A stretch of 64,000 nt of DNA from Actinoplanes xinjiangensis (GTDB lineage: Bacteria; Actinomycetota; Actinomycetes; Mycobacteriales; Micromonosporaceae), in NCBI RefSeq assembly GCF_003148685.1, contig NZ_QGGR01000013.1, positions 62,001-126,000 on the forward strand. Reading direction: 5' to 3'. The notes under the pieces are model-generated. The model saw nothing but the letters and a program-made list of their open reading frames with translations, had not been told where the DNA came from and did not search any database. The translations under genes and the position numbers were made by a program. Shown here piece by piece: positions 33,786 to 43,000 of this stretch (its first letter is position 1; each line of letters begins with the position of its first letter).

Positions 33786-34432
33786 ACGACATCACCGTGC
33801 TGGTCGTCGACGACCAGGAGCTGTTCCGGGCCGGGGTGGCGGTCATCCTCGACGCGCAGCCGGGGATCACCGTGGTCGGCGAGGCGGGCAACGGTGCCGA
33901 CGCGGTGCGCCTGGTGAAGGAGTTGCGGCCGGACGTCGTACTCATGGATCTGCGGATGCCGGTGATGGACGGTGTCGAAGCGACCCGGCAGATCTATGCC
34001 GCCGCGGCCTCCCCGCCGGTGCGTGTCCTGGTGCTCACCACCTTCAACCTCGACGACCGGGCGGCCACCGCGATCCGGCACGGCGCGAGCGGCTTCCTGC
34101 TGAAGGACACCACGCCCGCCCAGTTGACCGATGCGGTCCGCAGCGTCCACGCGGGCAACGCGGTGCTCGCCCCCGCCGACCTCTCGGCCCTGCTGACCAG
34201 CCAGTTCCCCGCGCCGAAACCGGTGCCGGACGCCTATCTCACCCTGACCGACAAGGAGCGGGCCGTCTTTCGGGCCGTGGCCCGCGGCCTGTCCAACGCG
34301 GAGATCGCCGCCGAGATCTTCGCGGGGGAGTCGACGGTGAAGACGCACGTCGGAGCGATCCTGCGCAAGTTGTCGCTGCGCGATCGGGTGCAGATCGCGG
34401 TGTTCGCCCACGAGCACGGCCTGCTGTCCTGA
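33782..34432 (+). CDS. NarL/LuxR-type response regulator
   Basis: 216 residues, partner of the upstream kinase (ATGA overlap). The receiver has VDDQELFRAG, the phospho-Asp in DVVLMDLRMPVMDG and the lysine in GFLLKDTTP. The C-terminal LuxR helix-turn-helix reads LTDKERAVFRAVARGLSNAE and then EIFAGESTVKTHVGAILRKL. The target genes are unknown. The direct repeats just downstream (34449-34480) precede the acyltransferase and are candidate binding sites. Confidence 0.94.
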   Translation: MNDITVLVVDDQELFRAGVAVILDAQPGITVVGEAGNGADAVRLVKELRPDVVLMDLRMPVMDGVEATRQIYAAAASPPVRVLVLTTFNLDDRAATAIRHGASGFLLKDTTPAQLTDAVRSVHAGNAVLAPADLSALLTSQFPAPKPVPDAYLTLTDKERAVFRAVARGLSNAEIAAEIFAGESTVKTHVGAILRKLSLRDRVQIAVFAHEHGLLS

Positions 34433-34448
34433 ACGGCTCCGCGCTCGT

Positions 34449-34480
34449 CGGTACCTGAGGCCATCGCCGCGGTACCTGAG
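34449..34480. repeat. two direct repeats 21 bp apart
   Basis: CGGTACCTGAG occurs at 34449-34459 and 34470-34480, exactly two helical turns apart, in the 195-bp gap between the response regulator and the acyltransferase. Same-face spacing suggests a regulator binding site. Confidence 0.4.
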
Positions 34481-34627
34481 AGCGATGAAAGCAGCGGCCC
34501 ATCTGGGTGATCTTTCTTCCCGGGCCTGTCGGGTGACCCCGGTACGGCGGCGGATCGGCTGCCGCGCACCCCCGGGCCCGGTGGGTCGGTCCGGACGGCG
34601 GCTCACCTGTGGACAGGAGTCTCGCTG

Positions 34628-35767
34628 ATGACGGCAGCCGTCGACGACCAGGTGGCGATCACGAACACGGCACGGCCGGTGCCGTCCCGTTCCGTGCGGC
34701 TGTATGCGCTCGACGCTCTGCGGCTGGCCTGCGCACTGGCGGTGGTGGGATACCACCTCGGCACGTCGTGGCGGTTGGACGGCGTACATCCGCCCGGGTA
34801 TTTCCTGCCCGGTGCCGCGCCGGTGCTGATCTACGGCTTCCTCGGCGTCGAGGTCTTCTTCCTGATCAGCGGGTTCGTGATCAGCATGAGCGGATGGGGC
34901 CGGACCGTCCGCGAATTCGCCGCCTCCCGGGCGGCCCGGCTGTACCCCGCCTTCTGGGCCGGGGTGCTGATCACGGCCGTCGTGGTCACCGTGCTGCCGG
35001 TGACCGACGGGGTGCCGGTCAGCGGCGTGCCGAGCCTGGGCGACGTCGCGATCAACCTGACCATGCTGGCCGAGCCGTTCCGCGTGCCGCTGGTCGACAC
35101 GGTGTACTGGACGCTGTGGGTGGAGCTGCGGTTCTACCTGATCATCGCCTGCCTGATCGCGGTCGGGCTGATGACCGGCCGCGGGATGCGGGTGCTGGGC
35201 ACGGGATGGCTGATCACGGTGGTGCTCGCGCCCGCGCTGCCGTCCACACTGATGGAGACCGTCGTCATGCCCGGCTTCGCGCCGTACTTCATCGCCGGGA
35301 TGACGATGTTCCTGCTGCGCCGGGATCGCCGGGACCGCTGGTCGTGGGTGCTGCTGGCCGGCTGCTGGCTGGTCAGCCTGCACCACGTCGAGCTTCGGGT
35401 CCTCGATCTGCGACCCGGCTTCGCCGTGCCGGTCTGGCCGGCCACGGTGCTGATCACGCTCGCGTACGCCGTGCTGCTGGCCGTCGCCCTGGGCGTGACC
35501 GACCGGCTGGCGTGGCGCCGGCTCGGTGCCGCGGGCGCTCTGACCTACCCGTTCTATCTCCTGCACCAGCGCATCGGTTACAGCCTGATGCGTACCGTCC
35601 ACGACCACACCGGATGGCCGGCCTGGCTGCTGCTCACCGGAACCGTGATCGTCCTGCTGGCAGCTTCCTGGCTGGTGTACCGGCTGGTCGAACGCCCGCT
35701 GTCGCCACGGATGAGGCGCCGGCTCCTCGGCCGCGGGCGGGCACCCGGCACACCGCGGCATCCCTGA
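34628..35767 (+). CDS. acyltransferase 3 family membrane protein
   Basis: 379 residues with about ten membrane spans. The family start is YALDALRLACALAVVGYHLG, with the catalytic-site histidine in that first helix, followed by FLGVEVFFLISGFVISMSGW and SRAARLYPAFW. The end VYRLVERPLSPRMRRRL with its ERP motif is also typical. Members transfer acetyl or other acyl groups to sugars, lipids or antibiotics at the membrane. CAGGAG lies before the ATG. The acceptor is unknown. It follows a two-component system that may control it. Confidence 0.93.
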   Translation: MTAAVDDQVAITNTARPVPSRSVRLYALDALRLACALAVVGYHLGTSWRLDGVHPPGYFLPGAAPVLIYGFLGVEVFFLISGFVISMSGWGRTVREFAASRAARLYPAFWAGVLITAVVVTVLPVTDGVPVSGVPSLGDVAINLTMLAEPFRVPLVDTVYWTLWVELRFYLIIACLIAVGLMTGRGMRVLGTGWLITVVLAPALPSTLMETVVMPGFAPYFIAGMTMFLLRRDRRDRWSWVLLAGCWLVSLHHVELRVLDLRPGFAVPVWPATVLITLAYAVLLAVALGVTDRLAWRRLGAAGALTYPFYLLHQRIGYSLMRTVHDHTGWPAWLLLTGTVIVLLAASWLVYRLVERPLSPRMRRRLLGRGRAPGTPRHP

Positions 35768-35788
35768 ACGGGCGTCCGCCTCCCCGGA

Positions 35789-36505
35789 TCACGGCTGCCG
35801 GGGGCGGTGTGCGTTCTCCACCAGCGCCGAGGCGACGTCGCGAAGTTTGCGGTTGGAGTCCTGGGACAGTTTGGCGAGGATGGCGAAGGCCTGCTCGGCG
35901 GTGCACCGGCGGTCGCCCATGATGATGCCTTTGGCCTGTTCGATGACTGCCCGGTTGTCCATCGCCTTCTGCATGTGCCCGGCCAGCGTGGCCTGGGTCT
36001 CGTACAGGTGGGCGTTGGCCAGGCCGACGGCGGCGAACCCGGCGAAGGTCTGAGCGATCGCCACCGCGTCGTCGTCGAAGGCGTCCGGGACGGTGGCGTA
36101 GATGTTCAGCGCACCGGTGACGTGCTCGTGCACGGGCAGGCCGATCGAGAGGGAGCTGTACGCGTCGGCCTTCTCCGCGTCGGCGGCCCAGTCGGGCCAC
36201 CGCTGCTCGCTGGTGGTGTCGGGCACCAGCTGAGTGGTGGTGGTGTCGGCGGCATCCAGGCACGGGCCGTAGCCACGTTGGTACTGCTTCTCGTCGAGAG
36301 CACGGGCGAGTTCACCGGTGAACGCGGCGGTCTGAGGACTGTCGCCGTGCAGCAGGGTGACGCTGACCTCATCGGCGCCGGGGATGGTGCTCTTGGCCAA
36401 CTGCGCGATCTTGTTCAGCAGGGCGTCGATGTCGATGTCGGCGAGCCGGATGCGGCCGAGTTCGGCGAACGCCTGGTGCGGGTCCATCGTTTCGAGGTGC
36501 GTCAT
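35789..36505 (-). CDS. GAF-ANTAR regulator 1
   Basis: 238 residues. The N-terminal two-thirds is a GAF sensor fold (ADEVSVTLLHGDSPQTAAFT, YGPCLDA, SSLSIGLPVHEHVTGALNIY). The C-terminal ANTAR domain reads AVIEQAKGIIMGDRRCTAEQ followed by AFAILAKLSQDSNRKLRDVA, the RNA-binding signature of transcription antiterminators. ANTAR proteins bind paired small hairpins in leader RNAs. The start ATG at 36505 aligns with those of two paralogues (36920, 40721), and all three carry the same leader box 96-98 nt upstream. The GAF ligand is unknown. It is divergent from regulator 2. Confidence 0.93.
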   Translation of the reverse strand: MTHLETMDPHQAFAELGRIRLADIDIDALLNKIAQLAKSTIPGADEVSVTLLHGDSPQTAAFTGELARALDEKQYQRGYGPCLDAADTTTTQLVPDTTSEQRWPDWAADAEKADAYSSLSIGLPVHEHVTGALNIYATVPDAFDDDAVAIAQTFAGFAAVGLANAHLYETQATLAGHMQKAMDNRAVIEQAKGIIMGDRRCTAEQAFAILAKLSQDSNRKLRDVASALVENAHRPRQP

Positions 36506-36568
36506 GAGAAGCGTCCTTGACGAGGGCGCGTACCACCACCAGGGGTCTGGAGTGGGGTGCGCGGATCG

Positions 36569-36617
36569 CTGCAGGCCTCCTGATCCGGGGGCCGGGATCC
36601 GCGCCGCTTCTTGACGC
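36569..36617 (-). promoter_or_regulatory. conserved GAF-ANTAR leader element A
   Basis: The 16-mer GCGTCAAGAAGCGGCG runs from 36617 down to 36602, then 26 nt, then CCTGCAG (36575-36569). 96 nt separate the box from the start codon of regulator 1. The stretch between can fold: outer stem GCGCGGATC with GATCCGCGC (9 bp) and inner GGCC pairing. A smaller hairpin, CGCCC with GGGCG, precedes the box. Confidence 0.65.
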
Positions 36618-36805
36618 CGGTCTCGCAGACGCCCATCGGGGGCGACATGCCGCAGGTCTCCAGCATATCGGTGCGCGGACATCGACTGTCGCTTACGTTC
36701 CGCGCGCCGGCCGCGTGGTCCCGCGAAGCCGTTGAGGTGGCGATACGTCGAGGTCCGGGTAAGGTGGAGCCCTGTAGTCGACGCCTTCAACCGTCGACCG
36801 AGCCA

Positions 36806-36857
36806 GCGTCAAGAAGCGGCGTGGGTCTAGGACCCCCCCCCGAGCGGGGGCCTGCAG
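36806..36857 (+). promoter_or_regulatory. conserved GAF-ANTAR leader element B
   Basis: The same 16-mer at 36806-36821, then 29 nt including a run of nine C and a CCCCC/GGGGG hairpin, then CCTGCAG at 36851-36857. 98 nt separate the box from the start of regulator 2. Upstream, GTCGACG pairs with CGTCGAC. Confidence 0.65.
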
Positions 36858-36919
36858 TGGCCTATGCACAGCGCACCCGTCGAGGTGTCAGCTGATGTGC
36901 CCTTTCTCAGGACATGCCG

Positions 36920-37636
36920 ATGACGTACAGCCCGTTCATGGACCCCGGTGACGCTTTCGCGCAGCTCGGCCGGATCAGACCCCGGGAGACCAGCCTTCAC
37001 GACGTGTTTCAGCGCGTCGTCGACCTCGCCGGACTCAGCATCCACGGGGTGACCGAGGTATCCCTCACCATGGTGCGGGACCGAGGCGCCCACACGCCCG
37101 CCTCCACCGGTGGCCTCGCCTCGACCCTGGACGAGTTGCAGTACGAACTGGGCTACGGCCCCTGCCTACAGGCCGCGAACTCCACCACCGTCGAGTCCGT
37201 CGTCGACATGGCGGCCGAGACCCGATGGCCGGACTGGACCACCGGCGCGCTGCGGGCGGGAGCCCGGAGTTCGCTGTCCATCGGGCTGCCGGGCCATGCC
37301 ACGGTCGGCGGGGCACTCAACCTCTACGCCACCGAGCCCCACGTCTTCGACGACGACGCGATCATCGTGGCGCAGGCCTTCGCCGGTTTCGCCGGCGTCG
37401 CCATGGCCAACGAGTTCCTCAACGAAGCCCAGGCGGCCCTGTTGCGTCGCGTGGAGGCCGCCATGGACAGGGGCGCCGTCATCGAGCAGGCCAAGGGGAT
37501 CCTCATCAACGACCGGCGCTGCACCCCGGCGCAGGCCTTCACCGTCCTGACGACGATGGCGCAGGACACCGACCGCACCGTCCGTGCCGTCGCCCAGGAA
37601 ATGGTGAACCGCACCGCCGAAGGTCCACCGGGGTAG
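36920..37636 (+). CDS. GAF-ANTAR regulator 2
   Basis: 238 residues, the same length as regulator 1. The GAF region has VTEVSLTMVRDRGAHTPAST, YGPCLQA and SSLSIGLPGHATVGGALNLY. The ANTAR end is AVIEQAKGILINDRRCTPAQ followed by AFTVLTTMAQDTDRTVRAVA. The ATG at 36920 was preferred over the one at 36914 because CAGGAC is then 7 bases away and the start aligns with regulator 1 (MTYSPFMDP against MTHLETMDP). It is divergent from regulator 1, with both leader elements between them. The final ANTAR residues differ from the usual NxKLRDVA, so RNA preference may differ. Confidence 0.93.
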   Translation: MTYSPFMDPGDAFAQLGRIRPRETSLHDVFQRVVDLAGLSIHGVTEVSLTMVRDRGAHTPASTGGLASTLDELQYELGYGPCLQAANSTTVESVVDMAAETRWPDWTTGALRAGARSSLSIGLPGHATVGGALNLYATEPHVFDDDAIIVAQAFAGFAGVAMANEFLNEAQAALLRRVEAAMDRGAVIEQAKGILINDRRCTPAQAFTVLTTMAQDTDRTVRAVAQEMVNRTAEGPPG

Positions 37637-37735
37637 CGATGGTCGCACCCGGCGACGCATACCGCACCTGTTCGGGGGTAGCCAGGCCCGGACGGCAGGC
37701 GCAGTGGCCCGGGTGGGGCGGATGGGGGATCAGCA

Positions 37736-39115
37736 GTGACCACGAAGGTGCGGGACTTCCTGGCCGGGCATCGCGATGCCATGGTCGCCGAGCTGGCCGA
37801 GTGGGTTCGGATACCGTCGATCGCCGGCGTTCCCGAGCACCTGGTCGATCTGCGGCGATCGGCGAACTGGCTGGCCGCGGCCCTGCGCGAGACCGGCTTC
37901 CCGTCGGTGGAGGTGTGGGACACCGAGGACGGGCCGGCGGTGTACGCCGCATGGTGTGCCGAGCCGGGCGCCCCCACGGTTCTGATCTACAGCCACCACG
38001 ACGTCCGCGCCGCGAAGGACGAGGAGTGGGACGAGACCGCGCCGTTCGAGCCGAAGGTCCGTGACGGGTACCTCTACGGGCGGGGCGCGTCGGACGCCAA
38101 GGGGCAGGCTCTCGCACACGTGTGGGCGGTCCGGGCCCATCTGGCCGCCACCGGCCGCGAGAAGCCCGCGGTGAACCTCAAGGTGCTGGTGGAGGGGGAG
38201 GAGGAGACCGGGTCGGCGCACCTGCGGCAGCTGCTGCAGGACAACCGCGACCGGGTCGGTGCCGATCTGATCGTCTTCTCCGACACGCTGATGTGGCGTG
38301 CCGACCATCCGGCGGTGTGCGTCAGCATGCGCGGCACCATGCTCGCCCAGCTGGAGATCATGGGGCCGTTGCAGGACGTGCACAGCGGAGCGGTGTCCGG
38401 GCCCGCCCCGAATCCGGTCCTGGAGATGAGCCGGCTGCTCGCCCAGCTGCACGACGACAAGGGGCGGATCACCGTGCCCGGTTTCTACGACAGTGTGGTG
38501 GAGCCGTCGCAGCGGTTCCGCGAGGAGCTGGCCGCGCTGCCGTACAGCGACGCCGACTGGCTGGAGCGGTCGCTGACCCGCAGCGTGGGTGGTGAGGCCG
38601 GATACAGCGTGCTGGAACGTCTGTGGACCCGGCCGGCGATCGAGGTGACCAGCATGATCGCCGGTGATCCGATCGGGCCGTCCCGGGCGGCTGTGCCGTC
38701 GGTCGTCACCGCCGACCTGAGCATCCGCTACGTCTGCGACCAGACCGGCACCGAGATCGCCGAGCAGTTGCGGCGGTGGGTCGCCGACACCGTCGGCGAC
38801 CGGTTCGGCCACCGGCTCACCGTGTCGCCGGAGAGCGCGCAGGACCCGTACCGGACGCCGGAGGACCTTCCCGCGGTCGCGGCCCTGGCCGAGGCCATGG
38901 GGGAGGGCTTCGGGCGTCCCGCCGGGCGGATGGGCAACGCCGGCGGCGGCCCCGCGGTGTGGCTGACGGAGAGCGTCGGTGCGCCGGTGGTGTATTTCGG
39001 CACCGGCCTGCCCGAGGACCACTGGCATGACAGCAACGAACGGGTCTCGATCGACGTGCTGCTCGCCGGTGCGGCCACCCTTGCCGCCTTCTGGGACCGA
39101 CTGCCGTCGGTCTGA
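37736..39115 (+). CDS. M20 family dipeptidase/deacylase
   Basis: A 459-residue cytoplasmic metallohydrolase. Metal ligands are recognisable: YSHHDV (about residue 86), GASDAKGQ (bridging Asp), EGEEETGS with the catalytic Glu and a ligand Glu, and a late His in GTGLPEDHWHDSNERV. The lid domain (about 210-320) starts MRGTMLAQLEIMGP. These match the M20/ArgE/DapE group annotated as dipeptidases. Substrate preference cannot be read. The start is a GTG without a strong ribosome-binding site. Confidence 0.92.
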   Translation: MTTKVRDFLAGHRDAMVAELAEWVRIPSIAGVPEHLVDLRRSANWLAAALRETGFPSVEVWDTEDGPAVYAAWCAEPGAPTVLIYSHHDVRAAKDEEWDETAPFEPKVRDGYLYGRGASDAKGQALAHVWAVRAHLAATGREKPAVNLKVLVEGEEETGSAHLRQLLQDNRDRVGADLIVFSDTLMWRADHPAVCVSMRGTMLAQLEIMGPLQDVHSGAVSGPAPNPVLEMSRLLAQLHDDKGRITVPGFYDSVVEPSQRFREELAALPYSDADWLERSLTRSVGGEAGYSVLERLWTRPAIEVTSMIAGDPIGPSRAAVPSVVTADLSIRYVCDQTGTEIAEQLRRWVADTVGDRFGHRLTVSPESAQDPYRTPEDLPAVAALAEAMGEGFGRPAGRMGNAGGGPAVWLTESVGAPVVYFGTGLPEDHWHDSNERVSIDVLLAGAATLAAFWDRLPSV

Positions 39116-39218
39116 ACTCTTCGGCCGTCTGCGGGCGGGCGTCGCAAGTCGGCGCATAGATGTCCGGGGTCGGGGTAGACGCCGCCGCATCGACGCGACG
39201 ACATGAGTGGAGAAGGCG

Positions 39219-40520
39219 ATGATCGCGGACCGCAGGTTGTCAGCCGCTGTCCTGGCCGTGCTGCTCACCGCGGTGGCGGGGTGCGTGTCGGTACGCGAAT
39301 CGGCCGAACCGGATGCCGGTGTCCCGGCGGACGACGTGGTGACCCGATCGGTGAAGGACGTCGAACGCTTCTGGGCGGACCGGTATCCGGAGCTGAGCGG
39401 CGGCGCCGCCTTCGAGCCCATCCAGGGTGGCCTTCATCCCTACACCGAGACGACACCGCCGCCCGCGTGTGGCGACCAGCAGAGCGCGTACCAGCCGAAC
39501 GCGTTCTACTGCCCCGCCGGTGACTTCATCGGCTGGGACGCCCAGACGCTGATCCCGCAGTTGCAGGAGCAGTTCGGTCCGCTGCTGGTCGGCGTGGTGT
39601 TCGCCCACGAGTACGGACACGCCGTGCAGGCCAGGCTCGGCGCCGTCGACCAGCCGACCGTCGTGCTCGAGCAGCAGGCCGACTGCTATGCCGGGGCCTG
39701 GATGGCCGACGCGCTGGCCGGACGGTCCGAGGCGTTCACCGGTGTCACGCCGGCCCAGCTCGACAACACGGTTGCCGGGTTGCTGCTGCTGCGCGATCAG
39801 CCGGGGACACCGGCACAGGCCGCGGAGGCGCACGGCAACGCCTTCGATCGCATCCGGGCCCTGCAGGACGGTGTGGAGAAGGGCGCCGCGGTCTGTGCCG
39901 CGTACCGTGCGGACAACCTCCCGGTCACCGAGGTGCCGTTCACCAGCCCGCTGGATGCCGCCACGGGCGGTGACCTGCCGTACGCGGAGGCGGTGACCTC
40001 CCTGGCCGAAGACGCGCAGGGATACTGGTCGCGTGCCTATCCGGATCTTGCCGGCGAGCCGTGGCAGGCCCTGCCGGTCCAGCCGTTCACCGGCACGCCG
40101 CCGTCGTGCACCGCCCCGGACCCGGCCGCCGGCGGTTCCGCGTTCTACTGCAAGGCGGGCGACTTCGTGACCTTCGACAACGGCCGGCTCGGCCCCCGGC
40201 TCCACCAGAACATCGGCGACAACGCCGTCGGCATGCTGCTCGGTGACCTGTTCGCCCGGGCCGCGCAGAATCGCCGCGGCGAGAGCACGTCCGACCGGGC
40301 GGGACAACTCGCGGTGGACTGCCTGGCCGGGGCGTGGACCAACGATCAGCTGAAACGCCGGCCGGGCCAGGGACTGACCCTCTCCCCGGGAGACCTGGAC
40401 GAGGCCGTGGCGGCGCTACTGGCGTTCGGGCGCGCGGGTGAGGTGACCGGCATCAGTGCCTTCGACCGCATCGCCTCGTACCGCAGCGGGGTTCTCCAGG
40501 GTCTGGGCGCCTGCACCTGA
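39219..40520 (+). CDS. zinc metallopeptidase lipoprotein with a degenerate second half
   Basis: 433 residues. MIADRRLSAAVLAVLLTAV then AGC is a lipoprotein signal. The first half is a neutral zinc metallopeptidase (YpfJ-like) domain with FYCPAGDFIGWD, FAHEYGHAVQAR (HEXXH) and EQQADCYAGAW (third ligand Glu). The second half repeats the domain (FYCKAGDFVTFD, QLAVDCLAGAW), but the HEXXH place reads GDLFARAAQ, so it cannot bind zinc in that way. GAGAAGG precedes the ATG. A GTG 12 bases upstream is possible. It may be a protease whose inactive copy binds a substrate or partner. Confidence 0.85.
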   Translation: MIADRRLSAAVLAVLLTAVAGCVSVRESAEPDAGVPADDVVTRSVKDVERFWADRYPELSGGAAFEPIQGGLHPYTETTPPPACGDQQSAYQPNAFYCPAGDFIGWDAQTLIPQLQEQFGPLLVGVVFAHEYGHAVQARLGAVDQPTVVLEQQADCYAGAWMADALAGRSEAFTGVTPAQLDNTVAGLLLLRDQPGTPAQAAEAHGNAFDRIRALQDGVEKGAAVCAAYRADNLPVTEVPFTSPLDAATGGDLPYAEAVTSLAEDAQGYWSRAYPDLAGEPWQALPVQPFTGTPPSCTAPDPAAGGSAFYCKAGDFVTFDNGRLGPRLHQNIGDNAVGMLLGDLFARAAQNRRGESTSDRAGQLAVDCLAGAWTNDQLKRRPGQGLTLSPGDLDEAVAALLAFGRAGEVTGISAFDRIASYRSGVLQGLGACT

Positions 40521-40607
40521 GCGCATGCCGAGACGTCCGGAGGGTTTCGGAGGCGGCGAGCCGGGCATCCGTGCCCTCTGCGGCCGGCGCGCAGCGCCGG
40601 CGAGGCG

Positions 40608-40656
40608 GCGTCAAGAAGCGGCGCGGTCCCGGACCGGAACCATCACGGTCCTGCAG
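40608..40656 (+). promoter_or_regulatory. conserved GAF-ANTAR leader element C
   Basis: GCGTCAAGAAGCGGCG at 40608-40623, 26 nt, then CCTGCAG at 40650-40656. 97 nt separate the box from the start of regulator 3. The interval folds as GGACCG with CGGTCC, inside GCGGTCC with GGCCCGC (one mismatch). Before the box, GCCGGCGC pairs with GCGCCGGC. Confidence 0.65.
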
Positions 40657-40702
40657 CGGCCCGCACGCTTCGCCCCGCATCCCTGGTCCGGTGCGGAGGC
40701 AT

Positions 40703-40719
40703 GAAGGAGGGACTCCTTC
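40703..40719 (+). promoter_or_regulatory. ribosome-binding site inside a start-site hairpin
   Basis: GAAGGAG, loop GGA, CTCCTTC: a perfect 7-bp stem that buries the AAGGAGG ribosome-binding site immediately before the ATG at 40721. Translation should depend on opening it. Confidence 0.6.
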
Positions 40720-40720
40720 C

Positions 40721-41434
40721 ATGACAGACCCGCAGATCAAGCACACCGACGCGTACGCCGAACTCGGGCGCATGGATTTCAGCCGGACGGACGTCGCGAC
40801 GGCCCTGGCCAGGGTGGCGGACGTGACCCGGCGCAGCATCCCGGGAGCCGACGACGTGTCGATCGTCCTCGTCGGCCCCGAGGGTGCGCACACCGCCGCC
40901 TGCACCGGCCGGCCGGCCATGATCGTCGACGAGTGGCAGTACCAGCTTGGCCACGGCCCGTGCCTGGCGGCGGCCGCCGCCTACCTCACCGTCACCGTGC
41001 CGGACATGGCCGGGGAGAGCCGGTGGCCGGACTGGGCGGACCGGGCCATCGACGCCGGGATGCACAGCTCGGTGTCCGTCGGACTGCCGCTGCGCGAATC
41101 GGTCGGCGGCGCGCTCAACGTGTACGCCCGTGGCCCGCACGCCTTCGACGAGGACGCGGTCATCCTCGCCGAGACGTTCGCCGGGTTCGCCGCGGTCGCC
41201 CTGGCCAATGCGCACCGGTACGACGGGTCCGCCAGCCTGACCGGCTACACGCGGGCCGCGATGGACCGCCGCGCCGTGATCGAGCAGGCCAAGGGCATCA
41301 TCATGGCCGACCGTCGCTGCACCGCCGACGAGGCGTTCGCCGCCCTGACGAGCCTCGCCGAGGGCTCCCACCGTGAACTCCGTGACGTGGCCGCCGGGCT
41401 GACCGCCGAGGTCGTGCATACCCGGGCCCGGTGA
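40721..41434 (+). CDS. GAF-ANTAR regulator 3
   Basis: 237 residues. GAF part: ADDVSIVLVGPEGAHTAACT, HGPCLAAAAAYLTVTVPDMA, SSVSVGLPLRESVGGALNVY. ANTAR part: AVIEQAKGIIMADRRCTADE followed by AFAALTSLAEGSHRELRDVA. The ATG at 40721 aligns with its paralogues. The ribosome-binding site is in a hairpin. The same leader box lies 97 nt upstream. The three paralogues differ mostly in the GAF pocket, suggesting different signals acting on a shared RNA target type. Confidence 0.93.
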   Translation: MTDPQIKHTDAYAELGRMDFSRTDVATALARVADVTRRSIPGADDVSIVLVGPEGAHTAACTGRPAMIVDEWQYQLGHGPCLAAAAAYLTVTVPDMAGESRWPDWADRAIDAGMHSSVSVGLPLRESVGGALNVYARGPHAFDEDAVILAETFAGFAAVALANAHRYDGSASLTGYTRAAMDRRAVIEQAKGIIMADRRCTADEAFAALTSLAEGSHRELRDVAAGLTAEVVHTRAR

Positions 41435-41486
41435 GCGACGTCCGCTCCGGCGCGGAAGCGTCCGTGGAACCCGGTCGGCCCGAAGT

Positions 41487-41873
41487 TCAGCTCAGCGGGG
41501 CGATGCAGAACGGATGGCCGGCGGGGTCCAGCAGAACCCTCCGCTCGTCGGGCTGTGGCTGCACCGAGGGTTCCACGGCGCCCAGTGCCAGCAACCGTGC
41601 CTGGCCGGCGTCCAGGTCCTCGACCCCCAGCTCCAGGTGGATCTGCTTGCCCTGGGCGGGGTCCGGCCAGGTCGGAGGCCGGTAGTCGGCGACCCGGATG
41701 AAACCCAGTCCGGGTGCACCGTCCCTGCCGAGCAGGATGAAGTCGTCGCTGGAGTAGACGACGGGCAGGTCGAGGGCTGTGCCGTAGAAGCGGGCCATCT
41801 CGGCGGGGTCCGAACAGTCGAAGTCGACGGACACCAGGCGGATCGTGGATGCGGATGTGGTCTCGCTACTCAT
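41487..41873 (-). CDS. VOC family protein, glyoxalase-like
   Basis: 128 residues, two VOC half-domains: LVSVDFDCSDPAEMARFYGT, then KQIHLELGVEDLDAGQARLL and RVLLDPAGHPFCIAP. A TAGCGT -10 box (41881-41886) stands 7 nt before the ATG, so the transcript is probably leaderless. The perfect dyad at 41893-41917 covers the promoter. It is divergent from a WYL-domain regulator, which likely controls it. Substrate unknown; it may be a small-molecule binding or resistance protein. Confidence 0.85.
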   Translation of the reverse strand: MSSETTSASTIRLVSVDFDCSDPAEMARFYGTALDLPVVYSSDDFILLGRDGAPGLGFIRVADYRPPTWPDPAQGKQIHLELGVEDLDAGQARLLALGAVEPSVQPQPDERRVLLDPAGHPFCIAPLS

Positions 41874-41892
41874 GGGCGGGACGCTATGACGG

Positions 41893-41917
41893 GACCAGGA
41901 CAGTTCCTGTCCTGGTC
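41893..41917. promoter_or_regulatory. perfect 11-bp inverted repeat operator
   Basis: GACCAGGACAG, TTC, CTGTCCTGGTC. It lies just upstream of the VOC -10 box and 12 bp before the regulator start, ideal for a divergent repressor/activator. Binding by the WYL protein is inferred. Confidence 0.7.
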
Positions 41918-41928
41918 GTAGGGAACAC

Positions 41929-42903
41929 TTGGCGGATGTGATCAGCGCCTCCGCCCGCCTGCTGCGACTGGTCTCGTTGCTGTCCACCCGGCCGGCATGG
42001 ACCTGCCGCGAGCTGGGGGAGCGGCTGGCGGTCACCGACCGCACGGTCCGACGTGACATCGCCCGGCTGCGCGAGCTCGGCTACGGCATCGAGTCCGATC
42101 CCGGGCCGTGGGGCGGCTACCGCCTCGGCGGCGGCACCCGGATGCCGCCACTGGTCCTCGACGACGAGGAGGCGCTCGCCGTGGCCGTCGCACTGCGCGA
42201 GGTCGCACTCAGCGGTGTCCTGGGTGGCGACCAGGCCGCGCTGTCGGCGCTGTTGAAGCTGCGCCAGGTCCTGCCGCCCCGGGTCGCGGACCGGCTGGAG
42301 GACATGAACGCCACCGTCGTCCACACTCCCCGGAGCCAGGGCCGTCAGATCCCGCCCGGCATGCTGCTGGACCTGGCCACCGCCTGCCGCCGGGGTGAAC
42401 GCACCCGGCTGTCGTACCGCGATCATGCGGGGAACACCACGGTCCGCGACGTCGACCCCTACCGCCTGGTGCATACCGGTCTCCGCTGGTACTTCGTCGC
42501 CCGGGACGTGGCCCGGGACCAGTGGCGGACGTTCCGGGCCGACCGGGTGGCACGAATACAGTCGACCGGGCATCCGGTCGAACTGGGCGACCCGCCCGAT
42601 CCGGCGCTGCTCGTCTCCCGTGGCATCGCGGCCGTCGTGTACCCGCTCTACGTGACGATCCGGTTGCCGCACCCCATGGACCGGGCGCTGCGGCTGATCC
42701 CGCCCACGATCGGCACCCACCACCCGGACGGTCCCGATGCCACCATCGTCGAGATCGGAGGCAACGACGAGGATCAGCTCGCGACATACCTCCTCGGCCT
42801 GGGCACCACGCTGCGGGTCCTGTCGCCGGATGGGGTCCGGGATGCGGTACTGCGCCGTGCCCGGAACCTGGTCGAGGACAACGAGCACGCCGGGTCCCGG
42901 TAG
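41929..42903 (+). CDS. WYL-domain (YafY/DeoR-type) transcriptional regulator
   Basis: 324 residues. The winged helix-turn-helix (LLSTRPAWTCRELGERLAVT, DRTVRRDIARLRELGYGIES) is followed by a WYL sensor domain (SYRDHAGNTTVRDVDPYRLV, RWYFVARDVARDQWRTFRAD) and a C-terminal extension. WYL domains bind nucleotides, nucleic acid or small ligands. The start may be the TTG at 41929 or the GTG at 41938; no ribosome-binding site decides. Divergence from the VOC gene across a perfect dyad suggests local control. Confidence 0.9.
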   Translation: MADVISASARLLRLVSLLSTRPAWTCRELGERLAVTDRTVRRDIARLRELGYGIESDPGPWGGYRLGGGTRMPPLVLDDEEALAVAVALREVALSGVLGGDQAALSALLKLRQVLPPRVADRLEDMNATVVHTPRSQGRQIPPGMLLDLATACRRGERTRLSYRDHAGNTTVRDVDPYRLVHTGLRWYFVARDVARDQWRTFRADRVARIQSTGHPVELGDPPDPALLVSRGIAAVVYPLYVTIRLPHPMDRALRLIPPTIGTHHPDGPDATIVEIGGNDEDQLATYLLGLGTTLRVLSPDGVRDAVLRRARNLVEDNEHAGSR

Positions 42904-43000
42904 AGGTGTCGCGGCCGGGTACGAGGCCGGCCGTCGCGTTTGCCACCCCGGCGCCCGGGTACGCGTTCTGCGTCCCCAAGCCCCACCCTAGGAGTGCCTC

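Follow-up and report, generated by a model that had tools for sequence, protein, structure and literature searches.

The window analysed here, a stretch of 64,000 nucleotides (nt) from Actinoplanes xinjiangensis (contig NZ_QGGR01000013.1, positions 62,001 to 126,000), carries three genes whose proteins all show Pfam matches to the GAF and ANTAR domains: gene 1 (35789..36505, minus strand), gene 2 (36914..37636, plus strand, from its first in-frame ATG) and gene 3 (40721..41434, plus strand). An exact copy of the same 16-nt box, GCGTCAAGAAGCGGCG, lies before each of them, at 36602-36617 on the minus strand and at 36806-36821 and 40608-40623 on the plus strand, as had been reported in the initial annotation of this DNA. 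The spacing of 96, 98 and 97 nt between box end and start codon given there was reproduced for gene 1 (96 nt to the ATG at 36505) and gene 3 (97 nt to the ATG at 40721), whereas for gene 2 the distance of 98 nt holds only from the second in-frame ATG (36920), the first one (36914) being 92 nt away. The motif CCTGCAG follows the box after 26, 29 and 26 nt, also as described. When up to three mismatches were allowed, four matches were found in the window, three of which are the exact copies; as 12 of 100 shuffled sequences also reached four, this count by itself is not unusual.

Around each box, a similar series of elements was located. Upstream of gene 1, on the minus strand, the hexamer scan predicted a -10 hexamer, TATGCT (36662..36667), followed by CTGCGG (36650..36655) near the predicted transcript start, a possible pseudoknot partner of CCTGCAG, and by the core of a first hairpin, P1 (CGCCC/GGGCG, 36630..36644), found by eye and corresponding to the P1 helix of alignment A3. 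Behind the box comes a second hairpin, P2 (36559..36601), with CCTGCAG at 36569-36575 and a closing strand, CGATCCGCGC, at 36559-36568 whose pairing partner is the 3' end of the box together with the bases that follow. A start-side complement of the box spans 36499..36513, with CGCTTC at 36508-36513 and GACGC at 36499-36503, next to and overlapping the ATG at 36503-36505. For gene 2, on the plus strand, the scan predicted TAAGGT (36760..36765), and CTGTAG (36772..36777) near the predicted transcript start, P1 (GTCGAC/GTCGAC, 36777..36798, by eye) and P2 (36822..36857, up to the CCTGCAG at 36851-36857) complete the series. Gene 1 runs divergently from gene 2, and their two box leaders share a single intergenic region of some 400 nt (36499-36922). 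Upstream of gene 3, also on the plus strand, GTTT-N15-GGGCAT (40544..40568), which we take to resemble general-stress sigma (SigB/SigF) promoters, precedes CTGCGG (40578..40583), P1 (GCCGGCGC-GCA-GCGCCGGC, 40583..40601) and, after the box, P2 (40624..40663, with CCTGCAG at 40650-40656); a short start-side complement, CTTC plus GAC, surrounds the ATG (40716..40725). The region between genes 2 and 3 is occupied by an open reading frame (ORF) at 37736-39115 that reads like an M20-type peptidase and by another at 39207-40520 which, from its HEYGH motif and lipoprotein-like start, encodes a putative metallopeptidase.

The distribution of the box was followed first in its own genome (10.8 megabases), where the pattern GCGTCAAGMAGCGGCG, whose ninth position may be A or C, occurs seven times and its reversed control not once. 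The gene survey covered the seven places with at most one mismatch, nine two-mismatch places lying outside it, and all seven are upstream of a GAF-family ORF. Five of these seven genes have an ANTAR match. The other two, without such a match, appear to encode a GAF-only protein of 200 amino acids (L238, in C5) and a protein of 851 amino acids that reads as a GAF-PAS-PAS-GAF-histidine kinase (L235, in C28). The genome contains 27 ANTAR matches, partly clustered (C40:21900-28000, C54 and C5), 22 of which are without the exact box; given 27 matches against so few box places, most ANTAR genes of this organism lack it.

This pattern, in its A or its C form, is found in 34 of the 67 genomes of the genus, and close homologues of one box-gene protein are present in 41. 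Beyond the own species, the genus contains 40 box places, and a GAF-family gene was found downstream of 39 of them; 30 of these places were taken as loci (29 with a GAF-family ORF within 300 nt), and the remaining 10, reached through a protein search and direct retrieval, all precede GAF-family ORFs. At the level of the family Micromonosporaceae, the pattern was detected in 82 of 354 genomes, spread over 6 of the 44 genera, and 39 of the 49 box places outside the own genus were retrieved for gene context. Micromonospora showed a GAF ORF downstream of all 17 places with the A variant and of 9 of the 11 with the C variant, as did the single box place of one further genus (g7), whereas no GAF ORF was present at any of the places in three other genera (0/7 in g12, 0/2 in g5 and 0/1 in g43). 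A class-level sample contained the pattern in 9 of 394 genomes; the seven outside the family have no GAF ORF downstream and look like chance matches. As these searches used the exact pattern, diverged leaders elsewhere would be missed. The box recurs before homologues in Actinoplanes and in Micromonospora. A model (R1), built on 18 of the 27 leaders of the C type (L050 and L066 were among those left out), identified leaders in 8 of 121 genomes in a family search with strict filters, the own genome included and one (L086) being doubtful; in the own genome, its matches to window gene 1 (E 0.6) and window gene 2 (E 0.7) were weak.

Further comparisons were made on a set of 85 leaders, comprising 37 with the C-type box (C), 14 with the A-type box (A), 12 and 9 from Micromonospora with the A box (M_A) and the C box (M_C), and 13 with degenerate boxes, 12 of them chosen by eye from 51 protein-first regions without an exact box and one (L181) from a pattern search. 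A further 38 protein-first regions, box-free GAF-ANTAR genes, served as controls. The set excludes places without a GAF ORF (L059, L182, L186, L207-L214, L204, L221, L224 and L226), L206, in which the GAF ORF is just 27 nt behind the box, L141, which is leader-like but has lost the box, and the duplicates L178-L180, L192, L194, L195 and L202. As the leader sequences are related, the counts given below are not independent events.

Upstream of the box, a -10-like hexamer (T-A-n-n-n-T) was present in 71 of the 85 leaders compared to 12% of shuffled regions. It starts 44-55 nt before the box, with one leader at 66; since the scan covered distances of 44-75 nt from the box, any hexamer closer than that went undetected. 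CTGY follows 6-8 nt past the hexamer in 9/9 A leaders that have one, in 12/13 degenerate leaders and in 22/30 C leaders, and is rare at that spacing in the Micromonospora A leaders. Five further leaders (gene 3, L001, L005, L046 and L172) have GTTT-N15-GGGYA, for which 0.13 occurrences were expected in 85; by its likeness to a SigB/SigF consensus, some paralogues may be under the control of a stress sigma factor. The box is thus predicted to belong to the 5' untranslated region (5' UTR), with the predicted transcript start upstream of it. The same data bear on another explanation, in which a transcription factor reads the box as DNA, be it an operator or part of a promoter, and the hairpins have no role of their own: the strong constancy of the box and its location 44-55 nt from the hexamer in nearly all leaders having one would fit this, but the distance varies, within the 44-75 nt scanned.

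Counts of the named structures were made in three sets, with 18 leaders of the C type, 23 of the A type and 21 from Micromonospora; the A-type alignment (A3) is without L131, L132, L167 and L190. Cells changed on both sides of a pair numbered 26 in the C set versus 13.0 in shuffles, 44 versus 23.0 in the A set and 14 versus 3.5 in Micromonospora, and controls with slid structures reached at most 13, 17 and 5, respectively; the covariation score of the named structures was also above shuffles and slid controls in all three sets. Further pair types exceeded shuffles in the C set (38 versus 32.2) but not in the others (37 versus 34.7 and 20 versus 20.4). The double-sided changes, in counts not corrected for relatedness, are located in P1 and P2 and in a third hairpin. 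In A-type leaders, the last three bases of the box are themselves paired in the closing stem of P2, and just outside the box this stem shows double changes from G-C to A-U in five sequences and from A-U to G-C in seven. Comparison therefore supports the hairpins claimed before and after the box, in an A-type set that includes all three window leaders. The covariation of the flanking hairpins, together with a P2 closing stem that takes in part of the box, disfavours the DNA operator, which we regard as improbable. The comparison also bears on shared descent alone, in which recent duplicates would have inherited their upstream sequence and had too little time to diverge. In its favour, the genes are all homologous, and a degenerate box is present in 12 of the 51 protein-first regions that lack an exact one, but own-genome paralogues with proteins 45-82% identical to that of L065 have an identical box, and the flanking stems change while their pairing is kept, making this explanation very improbable.

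The initial annotation had missed one feature, the complementarity of the box to the translation start. When RNAalifold was run on the 27 C-type leaders, a stem formed by GCGUC/GACGU and GCAGCGG/CCGCUGC was predicted unprompted, and the start-side complement is also found in some A-type leaders (CGCUUC-UCAU-GACGC in gene 1) and in Micromonospora (CGCUUC-n-GACGU). The start region contains CGCTGC in 34/37 C leaders, 0/14 A, 0/12 M_A, 0/9 M_C, 1/13 degenerate and 1/38 box-free genes, and CGCTTC in 2/37 C, 3/14 A, 12/12 M_A, 0/9 M_C, 0/13 degenerate and 0/38 box-free genes. Pooling of the A-box leaders (A plus M_A, n = 26) gives CGCTGC in none and CGCTTC in 15, and the difference from the C leaders is significant by Fisher's test (p 4e-11), though the sequences are related and independent events are few. 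The start side therefore follows the box variant, which also argues against the DNA operator.

Energies and pairing probabilities were obtained for the same leaders. The mean z of the duplex between box and start was -2.1 for A, -1.7 for C and -2.5 for M_A leaders, compared to -0.4 and -0.5 for the 38 box-free genes. The pairing probability from the partition function was 0.80 with the native and 0.26 with a scrambled box in the C leaders (native higher in 37/37), 0.41 and 0.09 in A (higher in 13/14) and 0.62 and 0.16 in M_A (higher in 11/12). After exchange of the A and C boxes, the own box paired better in 34/37 C and 12/12 M_A leaders. Within the window, gene 1 has strong pairing between box and start (duplex z -4.4, mean pairing probability 0.95).

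Several results weigh against this pairing as the general role of the box. Within the aligned sets, the stem between box and start has no double-sided change, and 9 of the 21 Micromonospora leaders do not form two of its pairs. Run on a mixed set of 36 leaders and on 22 A-type leaders, RNAalifold returned a local hairpin inside the box (CGUC/GGCG) and not the long stem. The mean duplex z is weak in M_C (-1.3) and degenerate (-0.4) leaders, with pairing probabilities for native and scrambled boxes of 0.18 and 0.15 (native higher in 4/9) in the former and of 0.22 and 0.10 (7/13) in the latter. Just three of the 14 A leaders have the exact CGCTTC (eight when wobble is allowed), and the box exchange was undecided for A (own better in 8/14) and worse for M_C (2/9). 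No more than 38 of the 85 leaders have the box as their best window, and scrambling the box in silico did not significantly change the accessibility of the start site (lower in 24/37 C leaders, p 0.09). In the window, the pairing is strong for gene 1 only, gene 2 (z -0.9, probability 0.26) and gene 3 (z -0.4, probability 0.30) being weak. As to the local hairpin, it is paired in all 115 cells of the 23 A-type leaders, and counting neither supports nor excludes it because four of its five pairs are invariant and shuffles give the same value; L131, outside that set, has GACG opposite CGUC.

The initial annotation had put forward an autoregulatory leader or a family-wide RNA target bound by ANTAR proteins through paired hairpins. 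ANTAR domains are RNA-binding, and in the account of actinobacteria given in PMC8164766 their target RNAs are dual stem-loops with hexaloops carrying A1/G4, joined by linkers of 2-25 nt; A1/G4 is kept in only a little over half of the published set, and the targets often overlap the ribosome-binding site (RBS) or start, action at the level of translation being proposed. Dual hexaloops with strict A1/G4 and stems of at least 4 pairs were found in none of the 85 leaders, a result to be read as absence rather than depletion because the shuffled mean was just 0.34, and dual hexaloops of any sequence occurred at chance (48/85 leaders versus a shuffled mean of 50.6). The canonical ANTAR motif was thus rejected as the identity of the leader. 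Two of the seven own-genome box genes also lack an ANTAR match, and the paired-hairpin target is not supported; what endures of that proposal is a family-wide leader element that is not a chance repeat.

A related explanation is a non-canonical site, in P1, the box or P2, through which GAF-ANTAR proteins would regulate their own and sister messages; it is compatible with a leader acting on translation. The box is mostly found before GAF-ANTAR genes, the frequent overlap of published targets with the RBS or start fits, and the box is kept in some paralogues without start pairing, as would be expected if the sequence itself were recognised. Against it stand the hexaloop results, the two box genes without ANTAR and the many ANTAR matches without an exact box, and we consider it a minority possibility, though the foremost of those set against the leader described below. 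Like the ANTAR-target RNAs of PMC8164766, as presented there, these are probably leader RNAs tied to ANTAR systems, with a predicted 5' UTR and complementarity to the start; unlike them, they have a nearly fixed 16-nt box between hairpins and no A1/G4 dual hexaloops, and they precede the ANTAR genes themselves as well as GAF genes without ANTAR. The main text of that paper makes no mention of Actinoplanes, Micromonospora or autoregulation.

The ends of the leader raise a further alternative, a ligand-sensing riboswitch in which the 5' CUGYGG and the CCUGCAG after P2 would form a pseudoknot pocket and the box would relay the switch to the start. The candidate pseudoknot, CUGYG/UGCAG, pairs in 98.2% of cells in the 23 A-type leaders, and single-sided changes keep the pairing at one pair (U-G 15, C-G 6, U-A 2). 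However, no pair changes on both sides, the C-type leaders L006, L062 and L065 are without the GCAG partner, most M_A leaders have no CTGY at that place, and the genes point to no ligand; we think such a riboswitch improbable.

The association with genes, the covarying flanks and the position of the promoter make a transcribed, structured leader RNA very likely. In many leaders of these soil bacteria, the nearly fixed box can pair with the start site of the gene, and this suggests a new RNA control element. We are evenly divided on the fuller explanation, in which a structured 5' leader built around the box precedes genes for GAF-domain regulators, mostly GAF-ANTAR, in the Micromonosporaceae, and the box acts on translation by pairing with the start and switching. 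Sequence comparison shows the conservation of the box, the gene association, the covariation of P1 and P2 and the complementarity between box and start in three of the five subfamilies; the transcript start, the switching and the effect on translation are inferred. As the start side changes with the box variant, an anti-start role of the box is the single mechanism that fits best, and confidence is held at this level by the contrary RNAalifold results on the mixed and A-type sets and by the weak pairing seen in two of the window genes.

According to this mechanism, transcription would begin close to CUGYGG, some 35-45 nt ahead of the box, and the leader would fold into P1, the box, P2 and often the third hairpin. 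In one state, the box would form one side of a long-range stem that encloses the start region in a loop, with GCGUC paired to GACGY around the start codon or Shine-Dalgarno sequence and GMAGCGG to CCGCUKC beside it. In the other, the box strand would be held locally, either with its last three bases in the closing stem of P2 or in the CGUC/GGCG hairpin inside the box. Switching between both states would set expression, the candidate triggers being an ANTAR protein, a ligand, temperature or another RNA. The constancy of the box also where the pairing is unsupported suggests a second reader of this sequence, for which the GAF-ANTAR proteins are natural candidates.

Leaders that sequester the RBS, such as translational riboswitches and RNA thermometers, have a strand complementary to the Shine-Dalgarno or start region and competing local folds. 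The leaders described here resemble them in the complementarity of classes C, A and M_A and in the predicted competition with local folds, but the loop of the proposed stem contains part of the Shine-Dalgarno sequence, and accessibility of the start in silico does not depend on the box. No Rfam 15 family was found at the leaders, in a search of positions 34000-43000 of the window up to E 5 and of six related loci up to E 1. No such leader appeared in the titles or abstract openings among the literature matches listed, and no paper was retrieved when ANTAR domains were searched together with Micromonospora; as subscription papers are mostly outside the coverage of these searches, the novelty is provisional.

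More tentatively, these leaders may represent a new class of regulatory RNA of the Micromonosporaceae, possibly pseudoknotted, in which the shared box would allow one signal to switch the translation of many GAF and GAF-ANTAR sensors simultaneously, the paralogues forming a cross-regulating RNA network; that signal is perhaps a GAF-ANTAR protein recognising a non-canonical fold. Actinobacteria have many ANTAR proteins per genome, as the number of matches in this organism illustrates, and their RNA partners are poorly known. A leader shared by the sensor genes themselves offers a concrete RNA for binding and switching tests, and through it the control of the large GAF-ANTAR family becomes testable.

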